This document shows, piece after piece, positions 34,172 through 53,237 of a DNA stretch of 64,000 nucleotides. The DNA is taken from NCBI RefSeq assembly GCF_021353265.1, contig NZ_JAJTWU010000001.1, positions 62,001-126,000 of the forward strand, written 5' to 3'. The stretch's first letter is position 1. Every line of letters begins with the position of its first letter. This DNA is from Pelomonas cellulosilytica. GTDB taxonomy: Bacteria; Pseudomonadota; Gammaproteobacteria; Burkholderiales; Burkholderiaceae_C. The notes beneath the pieces were generated by a model. It was not told the DNA's origin. It worked only from the letters and a program-made list of their open reading frames with translations, and ran no database searches. The position numbers and the translations under genes were made by a program.

Positions 34172-34181
34172 AGAGGCCCTT

Positions 34182-35449: not shown

Positions 35450-35762
35450 GGAGAGGCCGATGTGAGAAGGGATTGATCAAGCAGGCCAAATGTGGTGGCC
35501 GGCCGCACGCAAAGCGGCGCAGTATGGGCGCGGCCCCCGCTCCAACGCCACTGCCGTAGCAACTGCTGTCACGTGGCAATCCCTCGTTACGAACAGGCTG
35601 CGACCGGATGTAAGGAGTTCGCGGTTTGCTAACCAATTGCGGATTCCGCATGTTTTCCGCCGCCATCATCCGCGCCTCGTTGCGGGGGCATGGCGTGAAG
35701 ACGCCGCTCAAGCGCTTGGCGCGCCCCCTCCTTTTCATTCCAGCGTGGGTCATTTCAGAAAC
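35450..35762. promoter_or_regulatory. Divergent intergenic region between ccmA and apbE
   Basis: These 313 bases hold the promoters for the ccm operon (leftward) and for the apbE-led envelope operon (rightward). Sequence in the middle is less GC-rich than the genes (around 35600-35670). A short palindrome TTGATCAA lies at 35473-35480 and a GCGGATTCCGC element near 35640. Neither fits a well-known regulator closely. No open frame with family resemblance was seen. The shared gap would allow coordinated expression of cytochrome maturation and the haem-motif lipoproteins. Confidence 0.4.
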
Positions 35763-36767
35763 ATGAGCGTCGCTCAGAAGACCATCAGTCGCCGGTCGAG
35801 CTTCAGTGCCCGGCCGCGTGAGCGTGTGCGTGCATCGCGCGGATGGTTCCAGCGCAGTGAAGCCATCATGGGTACGGCCATTCACGTCGAGCTGTGGAGC
35901 GAGGACCGCGCCCAGGCTGAGGCGGCGATGGCCGCGGTGATCGACGAGATGCACCGGATCGACCGCACGATGAGCCCGCACAAGCCGGGCTCCGAGCTGT
36001 CTCGCATCAACCGCGAGGCCGCTGCGCGGCCAGTGCCGGTCAGCGACGAGATGTATGGTCTGCTGTCACGTGCACGGCAGTTCTCCGAGCTGTCCGATGG
36101 CGTGTTCGACATCACCTTCGCCAGTGCCGGGCGCCTGTATGACTACCGGGCCGGCATCCATCCCGATGACGCGACGCTGGCGTCGGCCCGCGCGCTGATC
36201 GGCTGGGGCGGGCTGCAACTGGACCCGGCGGCGCGCACCGTGCGGTTCGCCCGCGAGGGCATGCGCATCGACCTCGGCGGCTTCGCCAAGGGCCATGCGG
36301 CCGACAACGGCGTGGCCATCCTGCGCCGCCACGGCATCGCGCACGGCATCGTCAGTGCGGGCGGCGACAGCCATGTGCTCGGCGACCGCCGCGGAAGGCC
36401 GTGGAGCATCGGCGTGCGCGACCCGCGGCGCGATGGCGAGGTCGTGGCGGTGCTGCCGCTTCAGGATACGGCCATCTCGACATCGGGCGACTACGAGCGC
36501 TTCTTCGAGCGCGACGGCGTGCGCCACCATCACCTGATCGACCCGGCCACGGGGCGCTCGCCCTGCGGCGTGCGCAGCGTAACGATCCTCGCCGACGACG
36601 GGCTGACCAGCGAAGCCTTGTCCAAGTGCGTGTTCGTCATGGGCTGGGAACGCGGGCTGCGCTTCATCGAGTCCCAGCCTGGCGTCGATGCGGTCGTCGT
36701 CGATGCCGAGGGTGTCCTGCACTACTCGTCCGGACTGCTCCACCACACCCACGGGGGTGTGCAGTGA
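35763..36767 (+). CDS. apbE: FAD:protein FMN transferase ApbE
   Basis: 334 aa from MSVAQKTISRRSSF; an open frame extends upstream without family resemblance. ApbE signatures are IMGTAIHVELW, the DGVFDITF block, LGGFAKGHAAD, VSAGGDSHVLGD, ISTSGDYERFF and HHLIDPATGRSP. ApbE transfers FMN from FAD to a Thr/Ser of extracytoplasmic proteins. No clear lipobox or signal peptide is seen, although a basic N-terminus (RRSSFSARPRERVRASR) could be a poor Tat-like signal. It is the first gene of the plus-strand train and lies 40 bases upstream of the HzsA-related gene. Its substrate is not obvious in the window. Confidence 0.9.
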   Translation: MSVAQKTISRRSSFSARPRERVRASRGWFQRSEAIMGTAIHVELWSEDRAQAEAAMAAVIDEMHRIDRTMSPHKPGSELSRINREAAARPVPVSDEMYGLLSRARQFSELSDGVFDITFASAGRLYDYRAGIHPDDATLASARALIGWGGLQLDPAARTVRFAREGMRIDLGGFAKGHAADNGVAILRRHGIAHGIVSAGGDSHVLGDRRGRPWSIGVRDPRRDGEVVAVLPLQDTAISTSGDYERFFERDGVRHHHLIDPATGRSPCGVRSVTILADDGLTSEALSKCVFVMGWERGLRFIESQPGVDAVVVDAEGVLHYSSGLLHHTHGGVQ

Positions 36768-36807
36768 TCCGCAGGGTTGACCTATTCATTGGTTTGAAGG
36801 AGGGCGC

Positions 36808-39843: not shown

Positions 39844-39848
39844 ACGCC

Positions 39849-40436
39849 ATGTCGACCGCCTCCCGATTCGATGCCGGCCGCTGGGCCGCGCTGCTGGGCC
39901 TGGCCATGCCGCTCCTGCTTGCCGGCTGCGGCGGTGGCGGCTCCAGCCCGCTGGACAACCCGGCGCAGATCGCCAACCCGGGCGCTGACGCGGGCCAGAA
40001 GCTGTCGTTCGCCTACTACCAGAAGTGCATCAACCCGATCTTCCTGCTGCAGTTGCCGATCCAGGGCACGTCGGTGACCAACACCTGCGCGGCCGGTGGC
40101 TGCCATGACGTGAGTACCGGCAGCGGCGGGTCATTTCGCATCAACCAGGGAGCGACGACGGTGGCCCTCGGCGGCACGCCGGACGCCGCCGCGCTGCGCC
40201 AGACCGACATGTACAAGAACTTCAAGTCGGCGCAAGGGCAGGTGGTGTTCGCCGACCCGACCGCCAGCCGGCTGCTTAACAAGCCGCTGGTGCGCGGCGT
40301 GCTGCATGGCGGCGGGCGCATCTTCCTGGACGAGAGCGATCCGAACGTCCGCCTGCTGCTGTACTGGATGTCGCACCCGGCGCCGCAGGGGCAGGACGAG
40401 TTCACCGCACCGGAGCCCGCGTCATGCGCCGCCTGA
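39849..40436 (+). CDS. Lipoprotein with CX4CH motif, paired with the HzsA-related protein
   Basis: 195 aa. The lipobox is LLAGC, followed by a glycine/serine linker. A single atypical haem-like motif, CAAGGCHDV (CX4CH), lies near residue 83, and a leading cysteine occurs in YQKCINPIFL. The sequence resembles the C-terminal haem segment of the larger preceding lipoprotein (short YPILQ/NPIF element, CH motif, loss of a normal CXXCH), so it may be a duplicated or split c-type domain. It starts 5 bases after the preceding stop and overlaps the next gene by 13 bases. I do not recognise a named family. Confidence 0.7.
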   Translation: MSTASRFDAGRWAALLGLAMPLLLAGCGGGGSSPLDNPAQIANPGADAGQKLSFAYYQKCINPIFLLQLPIQGTSVTNTCAAGGCHDVSTGSGGSFRINQGATTVALGGTPDAAALRQTDMYKNFKSAQGQVVFADPTASRLLNKPLVRGVLHGGGRIFLDESDPNVRLLLYWMSHPAPQGQDEFTAPEPASCAA

Positions 40437-41191
40437 CCTCTTCGGTGCTGATCGGCCTGCGCGCTACGCTGGCCGCCGCGACCGTGCTGGCAGCGGTGCC
40501 GGCGTGCGCGGCCGACGACCCGACCGAGCAGGTGCAGGTCGCCGACCCTTACCTCGAACTGCACACCGCCCCCGGACGCGGCTACCCGGTGTTCCATGTG
40601 GCCGGCCGTGGCGAGTCCGTGGAGATCCTGTCCCGCCACACCGACTGGTTCAAGGTCCGCCTGGCCAACGGCAAGGAGGGCTGGGTCGAGCGCGCGCAGC
40701 TGGAGACGACGCTGACGCAGTACGGCGCCCGCAAGACCTTCCGTGACGTGCTGCTTGACGACTACCTGCGCCGCCGCGTCGAGATGGGCATGGCGTGGGG
40801 CCGCTTCAAGAACGAGCCCGTGCTGAAGCTCTGGGCCGGTTACCGGCTCAGCGACACGCTGTCGGCCGAGGCCACCGTGGGCCAGGTGCAGGGCGTGTTC
40901 GCCGGCACAGACTTCTGGCATGTGGGCCTCAACGCCGAGCCCTGGTCCGACAAGCGGTTGTCGCCCTTCGTCGGCATCGGCCTGGGCAAGTTCAAGAACA
41001 TCCCGAACACCAGCCTGGTCAGCGCCATCACGACCAACGCCAACCTGGCGCACGCGACGGCCGGCGTGCGCTGGCACATGAGCGACCGCTTCGTGCTGCG
41101 TGCCGACTACAGCATCTACACCGCCTACGTGGCCGACACGCGCTCCAGCGAATACCGCGCGCTGACGGCGGGCATCTCCTTCTTCTTCTGA
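40424..41191 (+). CDS. SH3-domain/outer-membrane beta-barrel fusion protein
   Basis: 255 aa with a signal peptide (to about ACA-ADD, residues 1-29). A bacterial SH3 domain (~36-90; YLELHTAPGRGYPVFHVAGR, WFKVRLANGKEGWVERAQLE) precedes a C-terminal beta-barrel (~115-255). The barrel has alternating strands and ends in GISFFF, a terminal Phe typical of Bam-inserted outer-membrane proteins. An SH3 module ahead of a barrel could bind peptidoglycan or a periplasmic partner. It is followed 13 bases later by a second barrel protein with the same ending, so the two may form a pair. Confidence 0.75.
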   Translation: MRRLTSSVLIGLRATLAAATVLAAVPACAADDPTEQVQVADPYLELHTAPGRGYPVFHVAGRGESVEILSRHTDWFKVRLANGKEGWVERAQLETTLTQYGARKTFRDVLLDDYLRRRVEMGMAWGRFKNEPVLKLWAGYRLSDTLSAEATVGQVQGVFAGTDFWHVGLNAEPWSDKRLSPFVGIGLGKFKNIPNTSLVSAITTNANLAHATAGVRWHMSDRFVLRADYSIYTAYVADTRSSEYRALTAGISFFF

Positions 41192-41204
41192 GGCACTCGG
41201 CACC

Positions 41205-41873
41205 ATGCAGACCCGTCCCTTCCTTCAAGCCCTGCTGGTGACCACGCTGGCCGGCGCGTCCCTGCTGGCCCACGCTGCCGATGGCGGCCCCGGCGCCAAG
41301 GCCGACCCGCAGAAGCCCAACGAACAAGTCGTCGTGCCGGAGGTCGACCGCCGCGACGTAAAACTGCCGCGCATCCCGTCCAACGACTTCTCCGTCGGCC
41401 TGTTCGCCGGGGCCTATGCCACGCAGAACTTCGGCTCCAGCATGGTGAGCGGCATCCGGCTCGGCTATCACATCACCGAAGACTTCTTTGTCGAGGGCAA
41501 CTACGCGCAGACCAGGGTCAGCGACGAGACCTTCCGTCAGATCCTGCCGGGCGGCATCTTCGTCAGCGAGAAGCAGAAGCTGAACTACTACGACGTGCTG
41601 GGTGGCTGGAACGTGCTGCCGGGCGAGGTGTTCGTCGGCCGCAACGTGGCCCGCGCGTCGGCGCTGTACCTGGTGGCCGGCGTCGGCAGCACCAAGTTCG
41701 TCGACCAGCGGCACCAAACCATCACCTTCGGCCTGGGCACGCGCATCTTCCTGACCGACTGGGCTTCGGTGCAGATCGACATGCGCGACCACCGCTACTC
41801 GCTGGACCTGCTGGGCAAGCGCCAGAGCACCAACAACCTCGAGTTCACGCTCGGCGGCACGTTCTTCTTCTGA
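41205..41873 (+). CDS. Outer-membrane beta-barrel domain protein
   Basis: 222 aa with a signal peptide ending near AHAAD. After a short linker, residues ~60-222 alternate as barrel strands (FSVGLFAGAYATQNFGSSMV, VQIDMRDHRYSLDLLG) and end in TLGGTFFF with a C-terminal Phe. It is similar in style to the barrel half of the preceding gene but has no SH3 domain. It belongs to the outer-membrane beta-barrel (OmpA/OmpW-like) group of small proteins. It is in the same operon as TlpA. Confidence 0.76.
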   Translation: MQTRPFLQALLVTTLAGASLLAHAADGGPGAKADPQKPNEQVVVPEVDRRDVKLPRIPSNDFSVGLFAGAYATQNFGSSMVSGIRLGYHITEDFFVEGNYAQTRVSDETFRQILPGGIFVSEKQKLNYYDVLGGWNVLPGEVFVGRNVARASALYLVAGVGSTKFVDQRHQTITFGLGTRIFLTDWASVQIDMRDHRYSLDLLGKRQSTNNLEFTLGGTFFF

Positions 41874-41906
41874 GCGTCGCCGCGGCCTGTCCGTCTCCCG
41901 TCTTCC

Positions 41907-42425
41907 ATGATGTCGATATCCACCCCCTTCGCCGCCGCGCCGCTGCGGCGCCTGCTGGCCGGCGCGCTGCTCGGCGCGCTGGCCGGGCTTTGCGCCGCAG
42001 CCCCCGATGCCGCCGCGCCCGATTTCACGCTGCGCGCAGCCGATGGCAGGAACGTGCGGCTGCACGAGCTGCGTGGCCGCGTGGTGCTCGTGAACTTCTG
42101 GGCCACCTGGTGCGGCCCGTGCCGCCAAGAGATGCCGCTGCTGAACCAGCTCTATCAGAAGTACCAGGGCTCGGGCTTCACGCTGCTGGGCATCAACGTC
42201 GACGAGGACAGCCGCAATGCAATCAACCTGGCCGGCAAGCTGGGCGTGAACTTTCCGGTGCTGCTGGACGGTGACAAGAGCGTTAGCAAGCGCTACGACC
42301 TGAGCAGCATGCCATCCACGCTGCTCATCGACCGCGACGGAAAGGTGCGCTACGTGTACCGCGGCTACCAGGCCGGCTACGAGGCACTGTACGAAAAGCA
42401 GATCCGCGAACTGCTGAAGGAATGA
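41907..42425 (+). CDS. TlpA-type periplasmic thioredoxin
   Basis: 172 aa with an N-terminal signal (LLAGALLGALAGLCAAAPDA). The thioredoxin active site is NFWATWCGPCRQEMP (C69, C72), and the cis-proline loop is LSSMPSTLLIDRDG. TlpA/ResA proteins reduce thiols of extracytoplasmic proteins, including cytochrome CXXCH and metal-site cysteines. It precedes the cysteine-tailed DUF4266 lipoprotein with a 4-base overlap, which suggests it keeps those or the haem-motif cysteines reduced. Confidence 0.87.
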   Translation: MMSISTPFAAAPLRRLLAGALLGALAGLCAAAPDAAAPDFTLRAADGRNVRLHELRGRVVLVNFWATWCGPCRQEMPLLNQLYQKYQGSGFTLLGINVDEDSRNAINLAGKLGVNFPVLLDGDKSVSKRYDLSSMPSTLLIDRDGKVRYVYRGYQAGYEALYEKQIRELLKE

Positions 42426-42676
42426 TGACCATGCCCACCCGCCTTCCCTTGCGTGCCGGCGTGCTGCTGGGCAGCGCGCTGCTGCTAACGGGGTGCTCGT
42501 CGATGCGTCCGATCGAGCCCTGGGTCAAGCCTTACGAGCGCGAGCGCCTGGCCGATCCCATCATGCAGCCGTCGCGCAACGCGCTGTCGGCCAAGCACTT
42601 CGCGCACGTGTACGAGGTGCGCGAAGGCGCCCGCGGCGCCAACGGCGTGCAGGGAGGTGGCTGTGGCTGCAACTGA
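42422..42676 (+). CDS. DUF4266 family lipoprotein with Cys-rich C-terminus
   Basis: 84 aa from the first of three in-frame ATGs (42422, 42425, 42431; the AAGGA at 42417 is best spaced for 42431). The lipobox is LLLTGCSSM. The family block PWVKPYERERLADPIM is followed by a short helix and the invariant-looking tail NGVQGGGCGCN at the extreme C-terminus. DUF4266 proteins are small lipoproteins of unknown function that I recall co-occurring with ApbE, TlpA and DUF3570 genes, as here. The end of the gene overlaps the DUF3570 gene by 14 bases. Confidence 0.8.
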   Translation: MMTMPTRLPLRAGVLLGSALLLTGCSSMRPIEPWVKPYERERLADPIMQPSRNALSAKHFAHVYEVREGARGANGVQGGGCGCN

Positions 42677-43817
42677 GCTGTGGCGCTCGGCGTCGACGCG
42701 GCTGCGTCGCTTGCTGGCCTTGCTGCGCCGCCGCGGCGTGCCGCGGCCTGCCCATGTGGTGGCGCTGCTCGGCACGGCGCTGTCGGCGACCGGCGGCCAT
42801 GCGGCCACGCTGCCCGAGGATCAGGCCGAGGCCATGGTCCACGTCTACGACGCCGACGGCCTGCGCGCCAGCGGCCCGGCGGTGCTGGTGCGCAAGAAGC
42901 TCGGCGCGTCGGTGTCGCTGCACGGCAGCTACTACATCGACCAGGTCAGCAGCGCGTCCATCGACGTCGTCACGACGGCCAGCCCGTTCAAGGAGACGCG
43001 CAAGGAATACACCGTCGGTGGTGACTACCTCGTGCGGGACAGCATCCTGTCAGTATCGGCGACGCGCAGCACCGAGCCCGACTACGCAGCCACCACGCTC
43101 AACGTCGACGTGTCGCAGGACATGTTCGGTGGCATGACCACTGTCGCGCTCGGCTACTCGCGCGGCACCGACGACGTGGGCCGCAAGGACGTGGGCTTCT
43201 TCGACCACGCGCGCCACTGGCGCTACCGGCTGGGCGTCACGCAGATTCTGTCGCCGACGTGGCTGATGAGCGTGAACGCGGAGGTCGTGTCGGACGACGG
43301 CTACCTTGGCAACCCCTACCGCTCGGCCCGCATCGGCGGTGCCTTCGTGCCCGAGAACGATCCGCGCACGCGCTCCAGCCGCGCGGTGAAGTTCGGCGCC
43401 ACGGGCGCGCTGGCCCCGGGCAGCGCCGTGCATGGCGAGTACCGCTACTTCTGGGACAACTGGGCGATCCGAGCGCACACGCTGGAAGGCGGCTACAGCC
43501 GCTATTTCGGTGACCGCTACCTGGCCGAGGGGACGGTGCGACTGCATTCGCAGAGCAAGGCGCTGTTCTACAGCGACAACGCGGTCGCCGACACGGTCTA
43601 CCTGTCGCGCAACCGGCAGCTCAGCACCTTCAAGAGCCTGGGCCTGGGCGGCAAGTTGACCTACAGCGCCGGCAAGGTCGGCGACTACGAAGTGAAGCTC
43701 AGCGCCGCCTACGAATTGCTGCACTTCAAGTACAGCGACTTTACCGACCTCCGCTCGGGCAAGGCGTACGCACTGAACGCCCACATCCTGCAGCTGTTCG
43801 CGTCGGCCACATTCTGA
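42663..43817 (+). CDS. DUF3570 outer-membrane barrel protein
   Basis: 384 aa from the GTG at 42663, preceded by AGGGAGG with good spacing; a GTG at 42657 is the alternative. A hydrophobic segment near residues 28-45 acts as the signal. The remainder is strand-rich with family blocks such as VSLHGSYYIDQVSSASIDVV, KETRKEYTVGGDYLVRDS and QLFASATF with a C-terminal Phe, typical of DUF3570. It is probably an outer-membrane barrel of about 14-16 strands. The family is repeatedly linked to DUF4266; no activity is known. Confidence 0.8.
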   Translation: MAATELWRSASTRLRRLLALLRRRGVPRPAHVVALLGTALSATGGHAATLPEDQAEAMVHVYDADGLRASGPAVLVRKKLGASVSLHGSYYIDQVSSASIDVVTTASPFKETRKEYTVGGDYLVRDSILSVSATRSTEPDYAATTLNVDVSQDMFGGMTTVALGYSRGTDDVGRKDVGFFDHARHWRYRLGVTQILSPTWLMSVNAEVVSDDGYLGNPYRSARIGGAFVPENDPRTRSSRAVKFGATGALAPGSAVHGEYRYFWDNWAIRAHTLEGGYSRYFGDRYLAEGTVRLHSQSKALFYSDNAVADTVYLSRNRQLSTFKSLGLGGKLTYSAGKVGDYEVKLSAAYELLHFKYSDFTDLRSGKAYALNAHILQLFASATF

Positions 43818-43828
43818 GGAGAAGGCGA

Positions 43829-44461
43829 TTGAACGCCCACACCCTGTTCACCCCCTGCATGCGGTTTCTGGCTTGTTGCCTGGCTGCACTGTCGATCTCC
43901 GCCCCGGTCTGGGCGGCCGAGCCAGCCGGGTCCGAGGCACCGGCCTCCGGCCCGGCGCTTGCTCCCGCGGTGGCGGCCTCGGCGCCGTCGGACGCCGCCA
44001 GCGCGCCGGCAGCACCCCAGCGGCTCGACGATCGCATCCAGGACGTCAAGGGCGACGTCATCCGCCTGAACCGTGACCTGCTCGTGCTGGAGGAGGAACT
44101 GCTGTTCCCCGCCAACACGCAGGTTGCCGTGTTCGTGTCGATGGATGTTGGCAAGATGTTCGAGCTCGATTCGCTGCAGGTGAAGCTGGACGACAAGCTG
44201 GTCGCCAGCTACCTGTACTCGCCGCTGGAGGTGCAGGCGCTGCACCGCGGTGGCATGCAGCGTGTCTACCTTGGCAACCTGAAGTCGGGCGAGCACGAGA
44301 TCGTGGCCTTTTTCACCGGCAAGGGCCCGCACTTCCGCGACTACAAGCGCGGCGCGACGGTGAAGTTCGACAAGGGCACCGACCCGAAGTACATCGAGCT
44401 GCGCATCCAGGACTCCACCGGCAAGCTGCAGCCGGAGTTCGACGTCAAGGTCTGGCAATAG
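43829..44461 (+). CDS. Exported protein of unknown family with beta-sandwich C-terminus
   Basis: 210 aa from a TTG start with AGGAG 7 bases upstream; the first ATG (43859) would remove 10 residues. A signal peptide (LACCLAALSISAPVWA) is followed by an Ala/Pro/Ser linker and a short coiled-coil (DDRIQDVKGDVIRLNRDLLV). A beta-rich domain (~95-210) includes LDDKLVASYLYSPLEVQALH and ELRIQDSTGKLQPEF. I do not recognise the family. Its place at the head of the TPR/ExbBD part of the train suggests a periplasmic partner of the energised complex. Confidence 0.65.
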   Translation: MNAHTLFTPCMRFLACCLAALSISAPVWAAEPAGSEAPASGPALAPAVAASAPSDAASAPAAPQRLDDRIQDVKGDVIRLNRDLLVLEEELLFPANTQVAVFVSMDVGKMFELDSLQVKLDDKLVASYLYSPLEVQALHRGGMQRVYLGNLKSGEHEIVAFFTGKGPHFRDYKRGATVKFDKGTDPKYIELRIQDSTGKLQPEFDVKVWQ

Positions 44462-44475
44462 GCGTCGACGTGCAG

Positions 44476-46389
44476 ATGGCTTCGAGCAGCTCTTCCCCGC
44501 GCATGGCGCGCGCCTGGTGCCGCCTGGGCGCGGTAGCGGCGCTGGCCGGCGCGCTGGGCGCCGCGCACGCGGCCGACGCGCCTGCGCCCAGGTTGGTGAA
44601 AGACCCGCACTACGGCGACACGCTCTTCCACCTCTACCAGGACCAGTACTTCACAGCGATCACGGGCTTGATGGCGTCGCAGCATTTCGAGCGGGTCAGC
44701 CGGCATGCCGACGAAGCCGAGCTGCTGCGCGGCGGCCTGCTGCTGTCCTACGGGCTGCACCGCGAGGCCGGCGAGGTGTTCACGCGGCTGCTGGCGCAGA
44801 CCGCCGCGCCGCCGGTGCGCGACCGTGCGTGGTTCTACCTGGCCAAGATCCGCTACCAGCGTGGCCTGCTCGCCGAGGCGCTGGACGCGCTGGGCCGCAT
44901 CGGAACCCGACTGCCGCCGGACCTTGATGAAGAGCGCGTGCTGCTGTACGCCAATGCGCTGCTGGCCAACCAGGACGCCGCGGGCGCCGCCCGGCTGCTG
45001 AACGGCGCGACGCAGCGGCCCGGCGCTGGTCTGTATGCGCGCTATAACCTGGGCGTGGCGCTGGTGCGCGGCGGTGACGTCGCCTCCGGCCGCAGGTGGC
45101 TCGACGAGCTGGGCCGCGCGCAGTCGCCACCCATGCCTGCGACCGAGGAATACCGCAGCCTGCGCGACCAGGCCAACCTGGCGCTGGGCTTCGCACTTCT
45201 GCGCGACGACAAGCCCGCGGACGCCGCCGCGATGCTGCAGCGCGTGCGGTTGGATGGTCTGCAGTCGGACAAGGCGCTGCTGGGCTACGGCTGGGCACTG
45301 GCTGCCGCGAATAGGCACGACGAGGCGCTGGTGCCGTGGAACGAGCTGCTGCGCCGTGGCACGCGCGATGCCGCCGCGCTGGAGGCGCACATGGCCGTGC
45401 CGTATTCGTATGCGCAGCTCGGCGCGTTCGGTCAGGCGCTGGCGCGCTACAACGACGCCATCGCCTTCTACGGCCAGGAAGACGCGGCACTGAACGAGTC
45501 CATCTCGGCCATCCGTGCGGGCAAGCTGCTCGACGGGCTGCTGGCGGCCAACCCGGGCGTCGAGATGGGCTGGTTTGCCGGCATTCGCCAGCTGCCCGAC
45601 ATGCCGCATGCCGGCCACCTGACCGATGTGCTGGCCCAGCACGAGTTCCAGGAGGCCTTCAAGAACCTGCGCGACCTGCAGTTCCTGGCCGGCAACCTGC
45701 AGGACTGGCAGGACAAGTTGGCGGTCTTCGACGACATGCTGGCCAACCGCCGGCAGGCCTATGCCGAACGGCTGCCGGCAGCGCGCGCGCAGGCGGGCGC
45801 CGCGGGGCTGGACGCGCTGCAGAAACGGCGCGACGACATCGCGGCCGAGTTGCAGCGTGTCGACCAGCAACTCGACACGCAGGCGCTGGCCACGGCCCGG
45901 CAATACGCGCTGATCGAACGCGTGAAGCGGGTCAACGAGAGCCTGGCCGCTATGACACCGGACGCGTCGCTCGACGTCGCCCGCGAACGCGCCCGGCTGG
46001 CCGCCGGACTGCTGACGTGGGACCTGGCGCAGGACCATGTGGCGCGGCTGTGGACCGCGCAGAAGGACTTGCGCACGATCGACCGCGAGCTCGCCGGCGC
46101 GCGCGCGCACGACGCCGCGCTGGCCCGCGCGCAGACCGAGGAGCCAGCGCGGTTCGAGGCTTTCGCGCGCCGCGTCGCCGATGTGAGGGGCCGCATCGCG
46201 GCGCTGATCCCCCGCGTGGCGGACCTGTCGCGACAGCAGCAGCAGGCCGCGCAGGAGATCGCCGTGGCTGAACTGGCCAGGCAGAAGGAGCGCCTGGCGC
46301 TCTACAACACCCAGGCGCGCTTTGCCGTGGCGCAACTTCACGACCGGGCCAGCGTGTCCAAGGAAGGCGACCGTGCGCCCAAGCCATAG
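44476..46389 (+). CDS. Large periplasmic TPR protein
   Basis: 637 aa from ATG 44476; a GTG six bases upstream (44470) is an alternative. A signal peptide (VAALAGALGAAHA-ADA) is followed by repeated helical pairs of tetratricopeptide type (residues ~70-370; LLSYGLHREAGEVFTRLLAQ and FALLRDDKPADAAAMLQRVR). A long coiled-coil C-terminal region (~420-630) is rich in Arg, Glu and Gln. It probably forms a periplasmic scaffold. The end overlaps the next TPR lipoprotein gene by 17 bases. No enzymatic motif is seen. Confidence 0.75.
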   Translation: MASSSSSPRMARAWCRLGAVAALAGALGAAHAADAPAPRLVKDPHYGDTLFHLYQDQYFTAITGLMASQHFERVSRHADEAELLRGGLLLSYGLHREAGEVFTRLLAQTAAPPVRDRAWFYLAKIRYQRGLLAEALDALGRIGTRLPPDLDEERVLLYANALLANQDAAGAARLLNGATQRPGAGLYARYNLGVALVRGGDVASGRRWLDELGRAQSPPMPATEEYRSLRDQANLALGFALLRDDKPADAAAMLQRVRLDGLQSDKALLGYGWALAAANRHDEALVPWNELLRRGTRDAAALEAHMAVPYSYAQLGAFGQALARYNDAIAFYGQEDAALNESISAIRAGKLLDGLLAANPGVEMGWFAGIRQLPDMPHAGHLTDVLAQHEFQEAFKNLRDLQFLAGNLQDWQDKLAVFDDMLANRRQAYAERLPAARAQAGAAGLDALQKRRDDIAAELQRVDQQLDTQALATARQYALIERVKRVNESLAAMTPDASLDVARERARLAAGLLTWDLAQDHVARLWTAQKDLRTIDRELAGARAHDAALARAQTEEPARFEAFARRVADVRGRIAALIPRVADLSRQQQQAAQEIAVAELARQKERLALYNTQARFAVAQLHDRASVSKEGDRAPKP

Positions 46390-49204
46390 CCTCACGCTGC
46401 TCGTCGTCTGCGGCCTTGCGGCCTGCGCCAGCAAGCGCGCCGACGTGCCCGAGACGCCCACGCTGAAGACGCTCGCGGGACGCACCGTCAAGGTCGAGCC
46501 CGACCGCGGCGTCATGGCCACCGAGGAGCAGACCATTGCCGCCTACCAGAAGTTCCTGGAGGTGGCACCGCGCGCGCCGCAGCGCGCCGAAGCGCTGCGG
46601 CGCTTGGGCGACCTGGAGATGGACAGCGCCGACAACCGCGCTGCCACCAGCACCGCAGGCACTGCCAACGCCGGCCCCGACTACGCGACTGCGCTGGTCC
46701 GCTACCGCAACTACCTGAAGGCCTACCCCAGGGACCCGGGCAACGACCGCGTGCTCTACCAGATGGCTCGTGCGCACGAGCAGGCCGGCGAGCTGGAGAC
46801 GGCCATGGCCACGTTGGACCGGCTTGTGGCCGAGTACCCGAAAACGAGCTACCGCGACGAGGCGCAGTTCCGCCGCGGCGAAATGCTTTTCGCGATGCGC
46901 GACTACGCCCGCGCCGAGCAGGCCTATGGCACGCTGCTGGGCGGCAGCAGCCCCTTCCAGGAGCGGGCCACCTACATGCAGGGCTGGTCGCGCTTCAAGC
47001 AGGCCAAGCTGGAGGAGGCGCTGCAGTCTTTCTTCGGTGTGCTGGACCTGAAGGCGGCGACGCTCGGCCGGCAGGGCGAGCTGCAGAGCCTGCCTGGCTT
47101 GACTCGCGCGGACCGCGAGCTGCTGGAGGACACCTTCCGCGTGACCAGCCTCAGCCTGGCCAACCTGCAGGGCGCGGAGGCCATTCCGGCCTACATCAAC
47201 TCTCCACAGCGCCGCGCCTACGAGTTCCGTGTCTACGAGCAGCTCGGCGAGCTCTACCTGAAGCAGGAGCGGCTGAAGGACGCCGCCGACACTTTCGGTG
47301 CCTTCGCACGGCGCGAGCCGCTGAATGCGCAGGCGCCGTTGCTGCAGGCCCGCGTCATCGATATTTACCAGGGCAACGGCTTCGCCAACCAGGCGCTGGA
47401 GGCGAAGAAGGACTATGTCTCGCGCTATGGCGCGGGCAGCGAGTTCCGCCAGGCCAACCCGGAGGGCTGGGAGCAAGCCCAGCCGCTCGTGAAGACGCAC
47501 CTGGCCGAGCTAGCGCGCCACCACCATGCGATGGCGCAGAAGAACAAGGCCTCGGCCGACTACCAGGAGGCCGTGCGCTGGTACCGCCTCTACCTGACGT
47601 CCTTCCCCGACACGCCGGAGGCCGCGCAGCACAACTTCCTTCTGGCGGAGCTGCTGTACGAGGACAAGCGCTTCGTGGAGGCCATCCCCGAGTACGAGAA
47701 GACGGCCTACGGCTACCCGGCCCATGCCCGCAGTGCAGACGCCGGCTACACCGCGCTGCTGAGCTACGCGGCGCTGGAGAAGGCCGCGGCGCCCGGCGAG
47801 CTGCCGGCCTTGCAGAAGGCCTCCACCAGCAGCGCACAGCGCTTCGCCGATGCCTTCCCGGCTGATGCGCGCAGCAGCGCCGTGCTGACCCGCGCCGCCG
47901 AGCAGCTCTACGCGCTGGGCGACGGCGAGCAGGCAGCGACCGTCGCCCGCCGCGTGCTCGCGATGCAGCTACCGGTGGCCGCGGCCCAGCGCCGCGTGGC
48001 CTGGACCGTCGTGGCCCACACGGCCTTCGAGCGCGGCGACTTTGGCGCCGCCGAGAAGGCCTATGGCGAGGTTTTGGCGCTGACGCCGGCCGCCGAGCCC
48101 GGCCGGCGCGAGCTGGCCGAGCGGCTGGCTGCGTCGGTCTACAAGCAGGGCGAGCAGGCCCGCAGCGGTGGCCAGGCGCGCGAGGCCGTGGGCCACTTCA
48201 TGCGCATCGCCAGCGTGGCGCCGGATGCGGCGGTGCGCGCGACGGCGCAGTACGACGCGGCCGCCGCGCTGATCGGCCTGAAGGACTGGGATGCCGCCGC
48301 GAGCACGCTGGAGGACTTCCGCAGCCGCTACCCCAAGCATGCGCTTCAGGGCGAGGTGACGACCAAGCTGGCCTTCGTCTACACGGAGAAGGGCAGTTGG
48401 ACGCAGGCCGCCGGCGAGTACGAGCGCCTGGCTGCTGCCAACCCCGACGCCACGCTGGCCCGCGCGGCGCTGTGGCAGTCGCTGCAGCTGCGCGAGAAGG
48501 CGGCCGGCAAGACGCCAGAAGCCATGACGCCCGCCGCCCGCGCCACGCTGGCACAGGCCTACGAGCGCTACGTGAGGCAGTACCCTCAGCCACTGGAGAC
48601 CGCACTCGAAGCGCGCTACCGCCAGGCCCTGCTGGTGCGCGTGGACGGCAACGCCGCGCGCGAGCAGGCGTTGATGCGCGACGTCTACCAGGCCGATCAG
48701 GCGGGCGGTGCCGCGCGCACGCCGCGTACGCAGTTCTTAGGCGCGATGGCCGCGCTGACGCTGGCGCAGCCGGCCGTCGAGGCCTACAGCAAGGTGCAGC
48801 TGGTGGAGCCGTTGGCCAAGCAGCTGAAGGCCAAGAAGGCACGGCTGGAGGAGGCGCTGAAGGCCTATGCCGTGGCGGCCGACTACGGCGTGGCCGATGT
48901 CGTCACCGCGGCTTCGTACTACACGGCGGCGCTCTACCAGGACTTCGGCAAGGCGCTGCTGGAGTCGCAGCGCCCGAAGAAGCTCTCCAAGCTGGAGCTG
49001 GAACAGTACAACGTGATGCTGGAAGAGCAGGCCTATCCCTTCGAGGAGAAAGCCATCGAGCTGCACGAGGCCAATGCGCGCCGTACGACGCAGGGCCTCT
49101 ACGACGAGTGGGTCCGCAAGAGCTTTGCCGCGCTGCGCGAGCTGCGGCCGGCGCGCTACGGCAAGGCTGAACGCAGTGAAGGAGGGGTCGATGCGATCCG
49201 CTGA
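46373..49204 (+). CDS. Very large TPR lipoprotein
   Basis: 943 aa from a GTG with AAGGAAGG upstream. The lipobox is VCGLAAC. Almost the whole mature chain is built from tetratricopeptide/Sel1-like helical pairs, starting with TIAAYQKFLEVAPRAPQRAE and YRNYLKAYPRDPGNDRVLYQ. This style resembles TPR proteins described beside AgmX/PglI and TolQR genes in deltaproteobacteria. It is likely an outer-membrane-anchored periplasmic scaffold linking the inner-membrane motor to the barrels. The end overlaps the next lipoprotein gene by 14 bases. Confidence 0.77.
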   Translation: MRPSHSLTLLVVCGLAACASKRADVPETPTLKTLAGRTVKVEPDRGVMATEEQTIAAYQKFLEVAPRAPQRAEALRRLGDLEMDSADNRAATSTAGTANAGPDYATALVRYRNYLKAYPRDPGNDRVLYQMARAHEQAGELETAMATLDRLVAEYPKTSYRDEAQFRRGEMLFAMRDYARAEQAYGTLLGGSSPFQERATYMQGWSRFKQAKLEEALQSFFGVLDLKAATLGRQGELQSLPGLTRADRELLEDTFRVTSLSLANLQGAEAIPAYINSPQRRAYEFRVYEQLGELYLKQERLKDAADTFGAFARREPLNAQAPLLQARVIDIYQGNGFANQALEAKKDYVSRYGAGSEFRQANPEGWEQAQPLVKTHLAELARHHHAMAQKNKASADYQEAVRWYRLYLTSFPDTPEAAQHNFLLAELLYEDKRFVEAIPEYEKTAYGYPAHARSADAGYTALLSYAALEKAAAPGELPALQKASTSSAQRFADAFPADARSSAVLTRAAEQLYALGDGEQAATVARRVLAMQLPVAAAQRRVAWTVVAHTAFERGDFGAAEKAYGEVLALTPAAEPGRRELAERLAASVYKQGEQARSGGQAREAVGHFMRIASVAPDAAVRATAQYDAAAALIGLKDWDAAASTLEDFRSRYPKHALQGEVTTKLAFVYTEKGSWTQAAGEYERLAAANPDATLARAALWQSLQLREKAAGKTPEAMTPAARATLAQAYERYVRQYPQPLETALEARYRQALLVRVDGNAAREQALMRDVYQADQAGGAARTPRTQFLGAMAALTLAQPAVEAYSKVQLVEPLAKQLKAKKARLEEALKAYAVAADYGVADVVTAASYYTAALYQDFGKALLESQRPKKLSKLELEQYNVMLEEQAYPFEEKAIELHEANARRTTQGLYDEWVRKSFAALRELRPARYGKAERSEGGVDAIR

Positions 49205-49895
49205 GCCTGGAGCTATGGGCCGTCCTGTCTGCCGCCCGCTGCTGGCGCTGGTCGCCGCACTCGTGCTGGGCGGCTGTGCGTCCAAGCCCGTCTCCAAGGG
49301 CGCCGCGCCCGCCGCCGCCGTGATGGCCGCCGCACCGGCTTCGGCCACCGAGACCGCGCGCGTGCCGGCGGCAGAGCCCGAGGTCGTCGTCACGCCCGTC
49401 GCGCAGCGCTCCTTCGACGATGCCCGCGGGCTCATGCGCGCCGGGCGCACGGCTGAGGCCGAACGCGCCTTGCTGGCGTTGACGAAGTCCGACCCGGGCT
49501 TGGCCGGCCCGCATGCCAACCTGGGCATCCTCTACCGCGACAGTGGCGGCCGGCTGGAGCCGGCCATCACCGAGCTGGAGCTGGCCGTCAAGCTGAGCCC
49601 GCGCCAGCCGGCCTTACACAACGAGTTGGGCCTCGCCTACCGCCAGGCTGGCCGCTTCGGCCATGCGCGCCAGGCCTACGAACAGGCGCTGGCGCTGGAC
49701 CCGAATCACGCCGCTGCTGTGCTGAACCTCGGCATCCTGTTAGACCTCTACCTCGGCGACGGCCCGCGCGCGCTGGCGCAGTACGAGCGCTATCTGGCGC
49801 TGACGCCCCAGGGCGACGCGGCGGTGACCAAGTGGATCGCCGAACTGAAGAACCGCAAGTCGGTTGCCACAGTGGCCAGCAAGGAGAAACCATGA
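49191..49895 (+). CDS. TPR lipoprotein
   Basis: 234 aa with a GGAGGGG site just before the ATG. The lipobox is LVLGGCASK, followed by an Ala/Pro-rich linker. At least three tetratricopeptide repeats occupy residues ~80-215 (GLMRAGRTAEAERALLALTK, AGPHANLGILYRDS, HNELGLAYRQAGRFGHARQA). It resembles PilF/NlpI-like small TPR lipoproteins that assist assembly of envelope complexes. It overlaps the next gene by 4 bases. Confidence 0.78.
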   Translation: MRSAEPGAMGRPVCRPLLALVAALVLGGCASKPVSKGAAPAAAVMAAAPASATETARVPAAEPEVVVTPVAQRSFDDARGLMRAGRTAEAERALLALTKSDPGLAGPHANLGILYRDSGGRLEPAITELELAVKLSPRQPALHNELGLAYRQAGRFGHARQAYEQALALDPNHAAAVLNLGILLDLYLGDGPRALAQYERYLALTPQGDAAVTKWIAELKNRKSVATVASKEKP

Positions 49896-50227
49896 AGCGT
49901 TCACCGCTGCTGATCACTGCAGCCCTGGCCGTCGCCGCCGCGGCGGCGCACGCGCAGGACCGCGCCGAAATCGACCAGACCAAGATTATCGGCAACCGCG
50001 AGCTGCCCAAGGTGCTCTACATCGTGCCGTGGAAGAAGCCGTTGCCCGCCCAGCTGTCCGGCAAGCCTACCGCCAGCGTTCTGGACGAAGCGCTGGCCCC
50101 GGTGGACCGCGAAGTGTTCCGCCGCCAGGTGCAGTACCACGCGCAGGTGGAGGCCGCGAAGGCCCCGCCCGCGACTCCGGCGCCCGACCCCGCGCCGGCG
50201 CCCGCCCAACCCCCCGTCCGCCCCTAA
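49892..50227 (+). CDS. Small exported Pro/Ala-tailed protein
   Basis: 111 aa with a signal peptide (LLITAALAVAAAAAHA-QDR). The mature part holds a short conserved-looking stretch (EIDQTKIIGNRELPKVLYIV and PWKKPLP) and ends in a Pro/Ala tail (PAPDPAPAPAQPPVRP). I do not recognise the family. Its overlap with the TPR lipoprotein gene and position directly before the TolQ/ExbB gene indicate a part of the same complex. Proline tails of this kind can span the periplasm. Confidence 0.68.
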   Translation: MKRSPLLITAALAVAAAAAHAQDRAEIDQTKIIGNRELPKVLYIVPWKKPLPAQLSGKPTASVLDEALAPVDREVFRRQVQYHAQVEAAKAPPATPAPDPAPAPAQPPVRP

Positions 50228-50261
50228 TCGTTTTCGGATCCGTCTTTTTCAGGAGAAGCCC

Positions 50262-50921
50262 ATGAGCGTCGTCGATTTCGCCGTCAAATTCTTTCAGGAC
50301 AGCGGCGTCGCTATCTACTTCAGTATCGCCATCATGTCGGTCGGCCTGGCCATCGCCATCGAGCGATTCGTCTTCCTGCGCAAGGCGCGCAGCGACAACC
50401 GCCAGCTGTGGGCGGAGATGCTGCCGGTGCTGCAGAACGGTCGGTTCAAGGAAGTGCATGGCATCGCCTCGAAGTCCGATGCCGCCATCGGCAAGATCGT
50501 CGTCAACGGATTGGAGCGCATGCAGAGCCCCGGCCGCCGCGAGGACTTCGATGCGGCGATGGAGGAGGGCATGATGGAAATCGTGCCGCGCCTCGAGAAG
50601 CGCACGCACTACATCGCCACGCTGGCCAACGTCATCACGCTGGTGGGGCTGCTCGGCACCATCATCGGCCTCATCAAGGGCTTCACTGCGGTGGCCGCGG
50701 TCAACCCGGCGGAGAAGGCCGAGCTGCTGTCGGCGTCCATCTCCATCGCGATGAACAACACGGCGTTCGCGCTGTCGGTGGCCATCCCCTTCCTGCTCAT
50801 CCACGCCTTTCTGCAGGCGCGCACGACGGAGATCGTCGACGGACTGGAGGCCGCCAAGATCAGCTTCCTGAACGTGACGGGCCGCATCAAGGCCGAGCAG
50901 CAAGCCGCGTTGGGCCGCTGA
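50262..50921 (+). CDS. MotA/TolQ/ExbB proton-channel protein
   Basis: 219 aa with three membrane segments: residues ~15-35 (VAIYFSIAIMSVGLAIAIER), ~125-150 (TLANVITLVGLLGTIIGLIK) and ~160-190 (SISIAMNNTAFALSVAIPFL). The signature VGLLGTIIGLIKGF and the TAFALSVAIP helix define the family. With ExbD/TolR partners it forms a proton-driven motor in the inner membrane. Two different ExbD-type genes follow, then a TonB-like gene. Confidence 0.9.
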   Translation: MSVVDFAVKFFQDSGVAIYFSIAIMSVGLAIAIERFVFLRKARSDNRQLWAEMLPVLQNGRFKEVHGIASKSDAAIGKIVVNGLERMQSPGRREDFDAAMEEGMMEIVPRLEKRTHYIATLANVITLVGLLGTIIGLIKGFTAVAAVNPAEKAELLSASISIAMNNTAFALSVAIPFLLIHAFLQARTTEIVDGLEAAKISFLNVTGRIKAEQQAALGR

Positions 50922-50960
50922 CATGGCACGGCTGACTTTCGCTGACCAGGAGGCTTGACC

Positions 50961-51464
50961 ATGCCGGTTCGCCGCCCGCGCAAGCACGCGGTCCACCTGG
51001 AGGTGACCGCGTTCATCAACGTCATCGTCGTGCTGGTGCCCTTCCTGCTGTCTACGGCCGTGTTTTCACACCTGGCCGTGGTGGACATGGCGTTGCCGAC
51101 ACAGAGTTCGGGCCCGGAACGCATCGACACCGACAACCTGCTGAAGCTGGAGGTCGTACTGCGTTCCGACGCGCTGGAGGTGGGCGACCGTATCGGCGGG
51201 CTCATCCAGCGCATTCCGTCCACGCCACAGGGCTATGACCTGGCGACGCTGTCCACGCTGCTGCAGGACATCAAGGCCAAGTACCCCGCCACGCGCTCGG
51301 CCAGCGTGCTGGCCCAGCCCGACACGTCATACGACAGCCTCGTGCAGGTCATGGACACCGTGCGCCAGGCCAGGCCGCCCGGCGCCACGGGCAAGGTGCC
51401 GGACATCGAGCTGTTCCCGGACGTCTCGATCGGCGATGCGCCCACCAGCGCGAGCAAGAAGTAG
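50961..51464 (+). CDS. ExbD/TolR family protein with Asn replacing the membrane Asp
   Basis: 167 aa from ATG 50961 with AGGAGG eight bases upstream (a TTG at 50955 is too close to it). One membrane segment (~16-38; FINVIVVLVPFLLSTAVF) and a periplasmic domain are present. In ExbD/TolR the segment carries an Asp needed for proton passage, in the pattern FxDxxxVLL; here the codon AAC (51018-51020) gives N20. The paralogue encoded just downstream keeps the Asp. This chain is therefore likely a non-conducting member of a mixed stator. Confidence 0.82.
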   Translation: MPVRRPRKHAVHLEVTAFINVIVVLVPFLLSTAVFSHLAVVDMALPTQSSGPERIDTDNLLKLEVVLRSDALEVGDRIGGLIQRIPSTPQGYDLATLSTLLQDIKAKYPATRSASVLAQPDTSYDSLVQVMDTVRQARPPGATGKVPDIELFPDVSIGDAPTSASKK

Positions 51465-51476
51465 CCGAGGCCCCGC

Positions 51477-51962
51477 ATGAAACTGACGCCTGTGCAGAAG
51501 CGCGCCGCCCGCATGGCGCGCAACAACTCGGGGCTGGACATGAATCTGGTCGCCCTGATCGACATCTTCACCATCCTGATCTTTTTCCTGATGTCCAGCA
51601 CTGGTATCGAGGTGCTGACCAATTCGCGCGCGGTGAAGTTGCCGAACTCGGTCGCCGAGAAGACGCCGCGCCAGACCATCGTCGTGTCGGTCAGCGAGAC
51701 CGACATCGTGGTCGATGGCCGCAAGGTGGCCGACGTGGCCGACGCGATGCAGCTGAAGGACGACCTGATCCCCGGGCTCAAGGCCGAGCTGGACCTGCTC
51801 GCCAGCCGCCCGGTGCTCGGCGCCGACAAGGACGGCACTAGCAAGGCGGTGACCATCATGGGCGACAAGCGCATCCCGTACAGCCTGCTGCGCAAGGTAA
51901 TGGCCACCGGCGCGCGGGCGGGCTTCGTCGAGATCGCCTTCGCCGTGCAGAGGAAGACCTGA
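51477..51962 (+). CDS. ExbD/TolR family protein
   Basis: 161 aa. The single membrane segment NLVALIDIFTILIFFLMSS keeps the proton-conducting Asp at D29. The periplasmic domain has the usual swapped-strand start (VKLPNSVAEKTPRQTIVVSV). A basic cytoplasmic N-terminus precedes the helix. It pairs with the TolQ/ExbB-like protein and, probably, the Asn-carrying paralogue. It ends 1 base before the TonB-like gene. Confidence 0.88.
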   Translation: MKLTPVQKRAARMARNNSGLDMNLVALIDIFTILIFFLMSSTGIEVLTNSRAVKLPNSVAEKTPRQTIVVSVSETDIVVDGRKVADVADAMQLKDDLIPGLKAELDLLASRPVLGADKDGTSKAVTIMGDKRIPYSLLRKVMATGARAGFVEIAFAVQRKT

Positions 51963-51963
51963 G

Positions 51964-53052
51964 ATGGCAGCGCTCGCGATGACGTTCCGACCGGACGTGC
52001 TGGCCTGGGCCAACGTGCCCGAGGACGACGCACGGTTCCGCCACATCCTGAACGCCGTGCTGGCCGCTGTGGCTGCCGTGTGCCTGGTGCTGTTGCTGGC
52101 GCCCAAGCCGGTGGCGGACCGGGCCAAGCCCCCCGAGCTGCCGGCCCGCCTGGCCAAGCTGCTGGTCGACAAGGACCTGCCGCCGCCCAAGCCCAAGGTC
52201 GAGGCGCCCGTCCGCAAGGAGACCGAGAAGGCCGCCGCGGAAGAGCCCGCGCGGGCCCTGCCGAAGGCGCAGCCGCTGAAGGGCGCACCGGTGCCTGAGG
52301 CCCGCAATCCGCAGCCCGATCGCCCGCCCGGCGAGGTGGCCGCGGCGCGCCGTAAGGCCGCCGGTGTGGGCCTGCTGGCGATGAAGGACGAGATCGGTCA
52401 ACTGCATGGCGCACCCGCTGCCGTGCAGTTGAAGCAGGACATCAGGCAGGGGCCCGGCGTGGGCACCGGCTCCGGGCCGGGCGTGGGCGCCGGCACGGAC
52501 GCCGGCCTACCGGACCGCAACATGATCACCTCCAACGCGGCCGGCGGCAGCGGTGGTATCAACACGGCGGCCTACAGCCGCAACACTGGCGGCGGTGGCT
52601 TGGCCGGGCGCTCGACGACCCTGGTCGAAGGTGTCATCGGCGGAGGCGGTGGTGGTGGTGCCGGCGGTGGAGGTCAGGGTGGCAAGGGCAACACGCTGGG
52701 TGGCGGCAATGGCGGCTCGGGCGGTGCTGGTGGCACGCTTCAGCGCGGTGGCAGCGGCAAGGCTTCGCGCTCGCTGGAGGATGTGCGTCTCGTGTTCGAG
52801 CGCAACAAGGGCTCGATCTACGCCATCTACAACCGCGCGCTGCGCGAAGACCCGGCGCTGCAGGGCAAGGTCGTCGTTGAGCTGAAGATTGCGCCGTCGG
52901 GCGAGGTGGTCGGCTGCCGCATCGTCTCCAGCGAGCTGAAGACGCCTGACCTGGAGCGCAAGCTGCTGGCGCGAATCCAGCAGTTCGACTTCGGCGCCAA
53001 GCAGGTGGACCTCATGGTCGTGACTTATCCGCTGGACTTCCTGCCGTCCTGA
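51964..53052 (+). CDS. AgmX/PglI-type TonB-like protein
   Basis: 362 aa. An N-terminal membrane anchor (~30-47; ILNAVLAAVAAVCLVLLLAP) is followed by a Lys/Pro/Glu-rich periplasm-spanning stretch (LPPPKPKVEAPVRKETEKAA). A long Gly-rich segment (~165-265) precedes the C-terminal AgmX/PglI domain (~270-362), which resembles the TonB C-terminal fold (ASRSLEDVRLVFERNKGSIY, VVELKIAPSGEVVGCRIVSS). TonB transmits motor force to outer-membrane proteins; this one probably does so for the barrels or TPR lipoproteins of the same operon. It is the last gene before the island. Confidence 0.82.
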   Translation: MAALAMTFRPDVLAWANVPEDDARFRHILNAVLAAVAAVCLVLLLAPKPVADRAKPPELPARLAKLLVDKDLPPPKPKVEAPVRKETEKAAAEEPARALPKAQPLKGAPVPEARNPQPDRPPGEVAAARRKAAGVGLLAMKDEIGQLHGAPAAVQLKQDIRQGPGVGTGSGPGVGAGTDAGLPDRNMITSNAAGGSGGINTAAYSRNTGGGGLAGRSTTLVEGVIGGGGGGGAGGGGQGGKGNTLGGGNGGSGGAGGTLQRGGSGKASRSLEDVRLVFERNKGSIYAIYNRALREDPALQGKVVVELKIAPSGEVVGCRIVSSELKTPDLERKLLARIQQFDFGAKQVDLMVVTYPLDFLPS

Positions 53053-53064
53053 AGCCGTTGTCGT

Positions 53065-53093
53065 GGAAGGGGGCCCTCGGCAGTCGCCCTTCC
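53065..53093 (+). terminator. Possible terminator of the envelope operon
   Basis: An inverted repeat GGAAGGG (53065-53071) and CCCTTCC (53087-53093) lies 13 bases after the last stop codon. No T tract follows, so it is at best a weak or factor-assisted terminator. Confidence 0.35.
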
Positions 53094-53210: not shown

Positions 53211-53237
53211 AAAAAGCCCTCGACTGAGGGCTTTGTG
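53211..53237 (-). terminator. Rho-independent terminator
   Basis: A perfect 9-base stem, AAAGCCCTC/GAGGGCTTT (53213-53221 and 53226-53234), closes a 4-base loop. On the minus strand it is followed by TTTTT. It would terminate leftward transcripts, as expected for the tRNA-Pro gene whose 3' end lies 66 bases to the right. Its survival shows that the chromosomal side of the junction is intact. Confidence 0.75.

Follow-up and report, generated by a model that had tools for sequence, protein, structure and literature searches.

The core complex of the gliding and spore-coat machines of Myxococcus (Agl-Glt and Nfs) was described in 2011 and 2013 and also occurs, clustered or standalone, in Gammaproteobacteria, where its function is called unknown (PMC3169522, PMC3858216). 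Another kind of locus, in which ApbE, a thioredoxin, DUF4266 and DUF3570 are encoded together, has been published as a flavinylation cluster (PMC8238504). The window analysed here, a stretch of 64,000 nucleotides from Pelomonas cellulosilytica, carries an operon at 35,763-53,052 in which relatives of both are joined, together with a haem lipoprotein resembling hydrazine synthase alpha (HzsA). We regard this operon as a redox-fitted variant of the Agl-Glt/Nfs class, in which both halves resemble known systems. In the literature searched, the names DUF3570 and DUF4266 appear only in PMC8238504, and its main text mentions no ExbD, ExbB, TolQ, tetratricopeptide repeat (TPR), gliding or motor. Moreover, no paper linking the motor core to redox proteins (HzsA-like with AgmX; AglRQS with redox or cytochrome; Agl-Glt or GltD with flavin or TonB) was present among the matches listed, preprints and most subscription journals lying outside the search, and the link may be in print elsewhere. 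The statement in an earlier note on this DNA that no described system has the full composition has to be narrowed: each half is close to a described system, whereas the combination with an HzsA-like protein was not found in the literature searched.

Judged from its sequence, the run of plus-strand genes is a genuine operon of 17 genes, with neighbouring genes spaced by -20 to +40 nt (overlaps of at most 20 nt, gaps of at most 40 nt). The first part encodes, in order, ApbE, the HzsA-like protein, a small lipoprotein, an SH3-domain barrel, an OMP_myx_plus barrel, TlpA, DUF4266 and DUF3570. The second part, the core, encodes a conserved exported protein here called 'u', GltC-, GltD- and GltE-like proteins, a small exported protein, TolQ, two ExbD proteins and an AgmX-type protein. 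This order is not due to chance: genomes of many other families contain loci in which the genes follow one another in the same way. Strong family matches were obtained for ApbE, HZS_alpha, TlpA, DUF4266, DUF3570, MotA_ExbB, ExbD and the AgmX/PglI C-terminal domain, and the names GltC, GltD and GltE were assigned by position and TPR content. The coordinates, strand, order and families given in the earlier note were borne out by family profile matches and by the reading of the open reading frames, but of its 18 genes only 17 were counted and the eighteenth was not found. It had also described two haem-motif lipoproteins, which is correct for the large one (two CxxCH and one CxxxCH) but not for the small one, where only a C-x4-CH motif is present.

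The association of the two halves was followed through DUF4266 and through the core, the latter detected by a GltD profile search. DUF4266 (PF14086) is present in 7 of 60 relatives and in 90 of 369 genomes of the window's class, and the core in 88 of the same 369; in a sample of the phylum the core was found in 10 of 299 genomes, all ten from the window's class, the number of the 299 lying outside it not being shown. Among 123 DUF4266 places, the window and 73 others were typed, five were fetched later as lying near a core and 44 were left out. The 80 DUF4266 loci fetched (7 from relatives and 73 from the class sample, in stretches of up to 19.9 kb) comprise 43 of type 1, defined by the company of HzsA or of both barrels, and 37 of type 2, 32 of them with ApbE, and this split follows sequence signatures. 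Of the 43 type-1 loci, 23 hold GltD within the fetched stretch, and of the 37 type-2 loci one does (L067, on the opposite strand). At the level of whole genomes, every typed type-1 genome has the core (42/42, against the base rate of 88/369; the three lowest rows of the GltD listing were left out of this count). The core is on the same contig within 27 kb in 33 of them (same strand within 8 kb in 22, same strand at 20-27 kb in two, opposite strand at 13-18 kb in nine) and on other contigs in nine. Four of the five further DUF4266 places near a core are also type 1, the fifth (L200) being cut by the contig end.

The haem lipoprotein gives a similar picture. HZS_alpha was found in 57 genomes, of which 52 have the core (odds ratio 80, p=1.6e-33, uncorrected for relatedness) and five do not (G050, G125, G361, G410 and G425); the HZS_alpha genomes come from 36 families, and in 32 of these a core genome was found as well. 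Counted by the distance between GltD and HZS_alpha, at least 37 cases were obtained (40 GltD places, best 51 HZS places). Chance neighbourhood was rejected on the type-1 (42/42) and HZS_alpha (52/57) counts, and the same counts dispose of the possibility, raised in the earlier note, that the halves never co-occur elsewhere. Its claim that the genes form one set is upheld in that they behave as one evolutionary unit in conserved synteny and co-occurrence, and the operon is probably a functional unit as well.

A scan with GltD in named genomes gave 80 loci, 43 of them with more than 9 kb upstream and more than 5 kb downstream. In these 43, the full motor set (TolQ, both ExbD and AgmX) is present in 42 and HzsA, DUF3570, DUF4266 or ApbE in 39, while all nine core genes occur in 31 and all six redox genes in 24; L133 and L163 have no redox gene. 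The high redox linkage among the 80 loci is biased, because they are the best matches to a profile of 22 rows of which 21 are redox-linked; the whole-genome counts suffer less from this. Some loci occur among both the named and the unnamed ones, six GltD pairs being identical, and distinct counts are given where at hand. Carriers of the core include Rhizobacter, Piscinibacter, Ideonella, Albitalea, Rubrivivax, Woeseiaceae, Steroidobacter and Thiodiazotropha. Pairwise divergences correlate across the halves (r=0.93 for DUF3570 and TolQ, r=0.82 for HzsA and GltD; 41 loci, no species-tree control), which is no more than consistent with co-inheritance. In a GltD tree of 137 rows, built with FastTree only and with long branches flagged, the copies with redox linkage group together (23 changes, the mean of the shuffles being 36.8 and none of the 500 as low), with several losses or gains.

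Two architectures were observed. The first is the single operon of the window; in the second, the redox module, with HzsA first, is divergent from an operon ending in 'u', the GltC-, GltD- and GltE-like genes, the small exported protein, TolQ, the two ExbD and AgmX, often with ApbE and/or TlpA before 'u'. The association of redox module and core therefore survives rearrangement. In both architectures, except in the three-motif HzsA group, two further proteins stand beside HzsA in divergent orientation: one with a single haem motif (CxxCH in 50/51) and a two-haem lipoprotein (45/47, with a LamG domain in both members scanned). A protein with a Tat signal, recognized by eye, follows these two in most of its 23 loci. 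The three proteins can be seen at L125:1065-6474 and L134:910-6310. Two members of the Tat-signal protein were scanned, neither with a Pfam match, and the proposal made by eye that it is DUF1501-like was supported by no tool; its family has at least 7,999 relatives (7,999/7,999 scored candidates at E<=1e-10), and some sources give it the name GspF. The LamG/haem protein of L134 had no match in the window genome, in a search without a positive control which thus shows nothing.

The second half of the operon resembles the Agl-Glt/Nfs (Group B) core as described in PMC3169522 and PMC3858216: one TolQ-like and two TolR-like proteins are clustered with TPR proteins in the GltC, GltD and GltE places. 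Moreover, a small exported protein stands in the GltF place, and the AgmX/PglI-type TonB-like protein represents the GltG type. The NCBIfam models for GltE, GltG and GltJ matched below cut-off and the AgmX/PglI C-terminal model above it. With two small barrels upstream, the order C-D-E-f-[motor]-G parallels nfsA-G, if the nfs order follows the letters. GltB is a barrel. GltA is listed as OmpA-like (Table 1 of PMC3169522), and the same source reports an extra core gene outside Myxococcales and Bdellovibrionales, which 'u' may represent. No function was drawn for 'u', because its model had no PDB match at E<=0.001. The small protein in the GltF position had no NCBIfam match, the Pfam scan having covered the other 16 operon proteins.

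The operon also differs from Agl-Glt/Nfs, since a flavin/haem/thiol module is placed between the barrels and GltC. GltG proper of M. xanthus has a cytoplasmic FHA domain; no FHA match was found in 51,964-53,052, and the AgmX-type protein was for this reason not filed as GltG itself. Matches to gltH, gltI or gltK were absent from the results for the operon, in searches not aimed at these genes by name. In the motor, the transmembrane Asp of ExbD2, corresponding to the proton-carrying D28 of AglQ, is present in 106 of 106 distinct rows, whereas 95 of the 106 ExbD1 rows have Asn at this position and the other 11 have Asp. The ExbD1 copies with Asp are those of L125, L128, L136, L143, L145, L156, L159, L160, L162, L165 and L171. 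Replacement of D28 by Asn in AglQ of M. xanthus is reported to abolish proton conductance and function (PMC3858216). Several columns of the glycine-rich motif of TolQ are invariant in 114 of 114 rows, and the window genome holds eight MotA/ExbB-family members above cut-off, this TolQ included.

In the first half, the four families of the published ApbE-DUF3570-DUF4266-thioredoxin clusters (PMC8238504) are adjacent, and the CxC tail of DUF4266 is kept in both type-1 and type-2 proteins. The operon type is nevertheless a separate subfamily, accompanied by the core in all typed genomes, and no DsbD match was found among the 16 Pfam-scanned operon proteins. An AlphaFold2 model of DUF3570 (pLDDT 87.6, pTM 0.82; predicted local and global confidence) is a 16-strand barrel, for which Foldseek returned outer-membrane channels (FadL and PelB among them) with a best E of 3.1e-8 and TM-scores of about 0.3-0.5. 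The loop that joins strands 3 and 4 (74-84), on the long-loop side, contains the tandem candidate sites; by strand parity they would be extracellular in this one model, whose confidence is low at residues 79-83. Over 32 rows, neither the two candidate acceptor Ser nor the two Asp vary. The place of the motif Gly is taken in 78 distinct type-1 DUF3570 proteins by Ser (36), Asn (27), Gly (10), Ala (2) or Cys (1), with two giving no match, so that Gly is replaced by Ser or Asn in 63. In contrast, type-2 DUF3570 retains the motif as published, with [ST]GA[ST] in 33 of 37 loci and [ST]GS[ST] in four, L010 and L011 being one sequence.

The HzsA-like protein aligns with hydrazine synthase alpha (5c2v, profile E=1.3e-20) in colinear segments that cover the propeller, the middle domain with its haem c and the C-terminus, and the second CxxCH is shared. 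The CxGCH and CxxCH motifs are invariant in 26 aligned rows, and 70 of 71 proteins have two or three haem motifs. They differ from 5c2v in a lipobox-like motif (62/71) and sometimes in a third haem motif; the small C-x4-CH lipoprotein occurs mainly with this three-motif subtype. Tyr591 is reported as the ligand of the active-site haem in hydrazine synthase alpha (PMC12607021, PMC12758564), and a Tyr at His+4 after the first haem motif was found in none of the 71 proteins. A hydrazine synthase was rejected on this ground.

These data led us to a reading in which the operon would encode one trans-envelope machine of the Agl-Glt/Nfs class carrying a surface redox module, and to which we give even chances; driven by protons, this machine would work on an assembly of flavin and haem proteins at the surface. 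TolQ together with the two ExbD proteins may form the proton-driven motor. Its axle would be heterodimeric, and the canonical Asp that carries the proton would be present in ExbD2 alone. From there, the AgmX/TonB-like protein would pass force via the GltC-, GltD- and GltE-like TPR proteins, 'u' and the GltF-position protein to the two small outer-membrane barrels. There it would act on the redox assembly of DUF3570, DUF4266, TlpA and the HzsA-like lipoproteins. In this assembly DUF3570 perhaps carries flavin mononucleotide (FMN) at one or two of the tandem Ser, attached by ApbE; DUF4266 and TlpA may be a thiol relay, and the HzsA-like proteins two- or three-haem lipoproteins. Agl-Nfs is reported to move the spore-coat polymer along the surface; by analogy, the likeliest job here would be that of moving or cycling the redox assembly, which could thereby act on a bulky substrate at the surface or outside the cell, for instance an insoluble electron acceptor or a polymer. 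A bolder version, in which a proton-driven motor with an asymmetric axle (one ExbD protonatable, the other with Asn) would mechanically cycle a flavinylated barrel and multihaem lipoproteins to pass electrons to or from bulky external substrates, and which could be ancestral to the Myxococcus gliding and spore-coat machines, seems to us distinctly improbable.

Several observations weigh against this machine as a single dedicated device. Twenty core copies (L167-L186) were chosen for the absence of a nearby DUF4266, and in the 16-20 kb fetched 18 of them have no HzsA, DUF3570 or small barrel; in addition, 36 of the 88 core-bearing genomes have no HZS_alpha. The core can therefore work with something else, and the dependence is one-way, of the redox module on the core. 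The Asn of ExbD1 also occurs in 16 of 17 counted cores without nearby DUF4266 and thus does not depend on the redox module. The likeness to M. xanthus Glt/Agl is drawn from the published description and from family models, several of them below cut-off. Moreover, flavinylation in this operon is unsure, because the canonical [S/T]GA[S/T] acceptor motif is absent from the window DUF3570, which has SSAS and TTAS instead, and because the window ApbE has no obvious signal peptide by eye, although many relatives have one. As the Asp and acceptor Ser are kept, a resemblance to the published clusters is claimed and not a proven flavinylation. The small barrels are present among the 20 chosen cores only in L171 and L179, and thus travel with the redox module. 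Some of these 20 copies share a genome with a linked copy (e.g. G140, G256 and G360), and in some the open reading frame of GltD is as long as about 1,500 codons.

Among the alternatives, energised uptake is unlikely. Here the motor would be a dedicated Ton-like energiser, and a metal or cofactor reduced at the surface by flavin and haem would be imported through DUF3570 or the small barrels. It can draw on the 25 DUF3570 clusters reported to hold also the ferrous iron transporter VIT1 (PMC8238504) and on the resemblance of the DUF3570 model to small-molecule channels such as FadL, CymA and OccD. However, no TonB-dependent receptor or plug matched among the 16 Pfam-scanned proteins (the 49,892 protein having been compared with NCBIfam only), and the large TPR and AgmX-type proteins resemble Agl-Glt/Nfs and not ExbB-ExbD-TonB. 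With ExbB-ExbD-TonB and Tol-Pal the operon shares the motor family and a TonB-like C-terminus, but it has two different ExbD and the large TPR proteins. As regards Tol-Pal, no Pal match was found in the operon, and the TolB model gave only a weak similarity to the HzsA propeller (29 bits, cut-off 343).

The earlier note had proposed a machine for export, assembly or loading, in which the motor and TPR scaffold would push the haem lipoproteins through the barrels to the surface. A motor exporting, assembling or loading lipoproteins is possible, and lipoproteins and barrels do share one operon, but such a route is decidedly unlikely. A weak match of the GltD-like protein to the Slam N-terminal TPR (PF24575; 25.9 bits where the cut-off is 35.2) would suit it, although this is a generic TPR signal, and the same 18 standalone cores have neither HzsA-like lipoprotein nor small barrel in view. 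The closest precedent, Nfs/Glt, suggests by analogy that a surface assembly is moved or worked on instead of exported.

We consider it very improbable that the operon encodes a machine for gliding or for adhesion to surfaces, in which the redox proteins would form the adhesin or serve to mature it. The motor and core are of the same kind as in Agl-Glt (PMC3169522) and lectin-like LamG haem lipoproteins adjoin HzsA in many relatives, but gltH, gltI and gltK gave no match, with the limit stated above. Finally, that two unrelated operons are merely neighbours is largely refuted and hardly credible any longer, since the core and plain DUF4266/DUF3570/ApbE clusters do occur alone but the type-1 redox module is found with the core in all 42 typed genomes and in two architectures.

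The redox link provides the core known from the gliding and spore-coat machines of Myxococcus with a testable job and suggests a role for the motor outside Myxococcus and its relatives. The operon also offers an outgroup for the origin of gliding machines and adds, for DUF3570 and HzsA-like proteins, an outer-membrane setting linked to a motor. In addition, the Asn/Asp split of the two ExbD is a testable statement on motors with one proton site.

Features of the operon and its 3' flank (positions in the window)
Feature	Position	Strand	Evidence and remarks
ApbE (FAD:protein FMN transferase)	35763..36767	+	PF02424 E=1.8e-80; longer open reading frame from 35,490
HzsA-like haem lipoprotein, 1011 aa	36808..39843	+	PF18582 (HZS_alpha) 9.1e-19; lipobox LAGC; two CxxCH, one CxxxCH
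Small lipoprotein, C-x4-CH motif	39849..40436	+	lipobox and motif in sequence; no family match (Pfam on longer open reading frame; NCBIfam)
SH3-domain small outer-membrane barrel	40424..41191	+	PF08239 1.9e-10; OMP_b-brl 3.4e-5, below cut-off
Small outer-membrane barrel, OMP_myx_plus	41205..41873	+	TIGR04565 145.6 bits, cut-off 60
TlpA/ResA-type thioredoxin, CGPC	41907..42425	+	Redoxin 1.8e-32
DUF4266 lipoprotein, type-1 subfamily	42422..42676	+	PF14086 5e-22; C-terminal GGGCGCN; signature PWVKPYER
DUF3570, predicted 16-strand outer-membrane barrel	42657..43817	+	PF12094 3.5e-35; tandem D-x-x-[ST]-x-A-S sites (SSAS, TTAS)
Conserved exported protein 'u', helix and beta sandwich	43829..44461	+	72/80 GltD-anchored loci; model pLDDT 83.8
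GltC-like TPR/coiled-coil exported protein	44470..46389	+	weak TPR; 77/80 GltD-anchored loci; named by position
GltD-like TPR lipoprotein (start inferred)	46373..49204	+	TPR_6 7e-16; alignment; named by position
GltE-like TPR lipoprotein	49191..49895	+	NF033758 GltE 3.3e-13, TPR part only, below cut-off
Small exported protein, GltF position	49892..50227	+	relatives in 73/80 GltD-anchored loci
TolQ/ExbB/AglR-like motor subunit	50262..50921	+	PF01618 (MotA_ExbB) 3.7e-24
ExbD/TolR-like subunit 1	50961..51464	+	PF02472 1.5e-12; transmembrane Asp is Asn (Asn22 from 50,955 start)
ExbD/TolR-like subunit 2, Asp29	51477..51962	+	PF02472 1.9e-14
AgmX/PglI (GltG/GltJ)-type TonB-like protein	51964..53052	+	NF033768 (C-terminal domain) 5.6e-18, 64.9 bits, cut-off 40
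Palindrome, possible terminator	53213..53234	.	AAAGCCCTCGACTGAGGGCTTT, 3' of last operon gene; terminator scan did not return it

At the boundaries, no sigma-70-type promoter was found in 35,000-54,500, terminator-like matches in the same interval numbered 6 (below the shuffle mean of 8.8) and no RNA element reached the gathering score. At 53,306-53,400, 3' of the operon, a short stretch is like the 3' end of a tRNA gene (GATTCGAACCTCC); ARAGORN found no tRNA in the window, and a horizontal island at a tRNA was rejected on this ground. Directly upstream and divergent from the operon, the minus strand encodes at 30,873-35,449 CcmC (TIGR01191), CcmF (CcmF_C) and an ABC ATPase in the CcmA place. 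Such cytochrome c maturation genes suit the c-type haem motifs of the operon. When the other loci were searched, most of which end shortly beyond the operon, relatives of this trio were found only in L089, downstream of the operon, and a CcmA-type match alone in L022 and L104. On the other side, at 53,542-62,958, the minus strand encodes a TPR protein, a GmrSD-like protein (PF03235), a PLD-like protein, an AAA_11/AAA_12 helicase and a HipA-like kinase, possibly a defence-type block.

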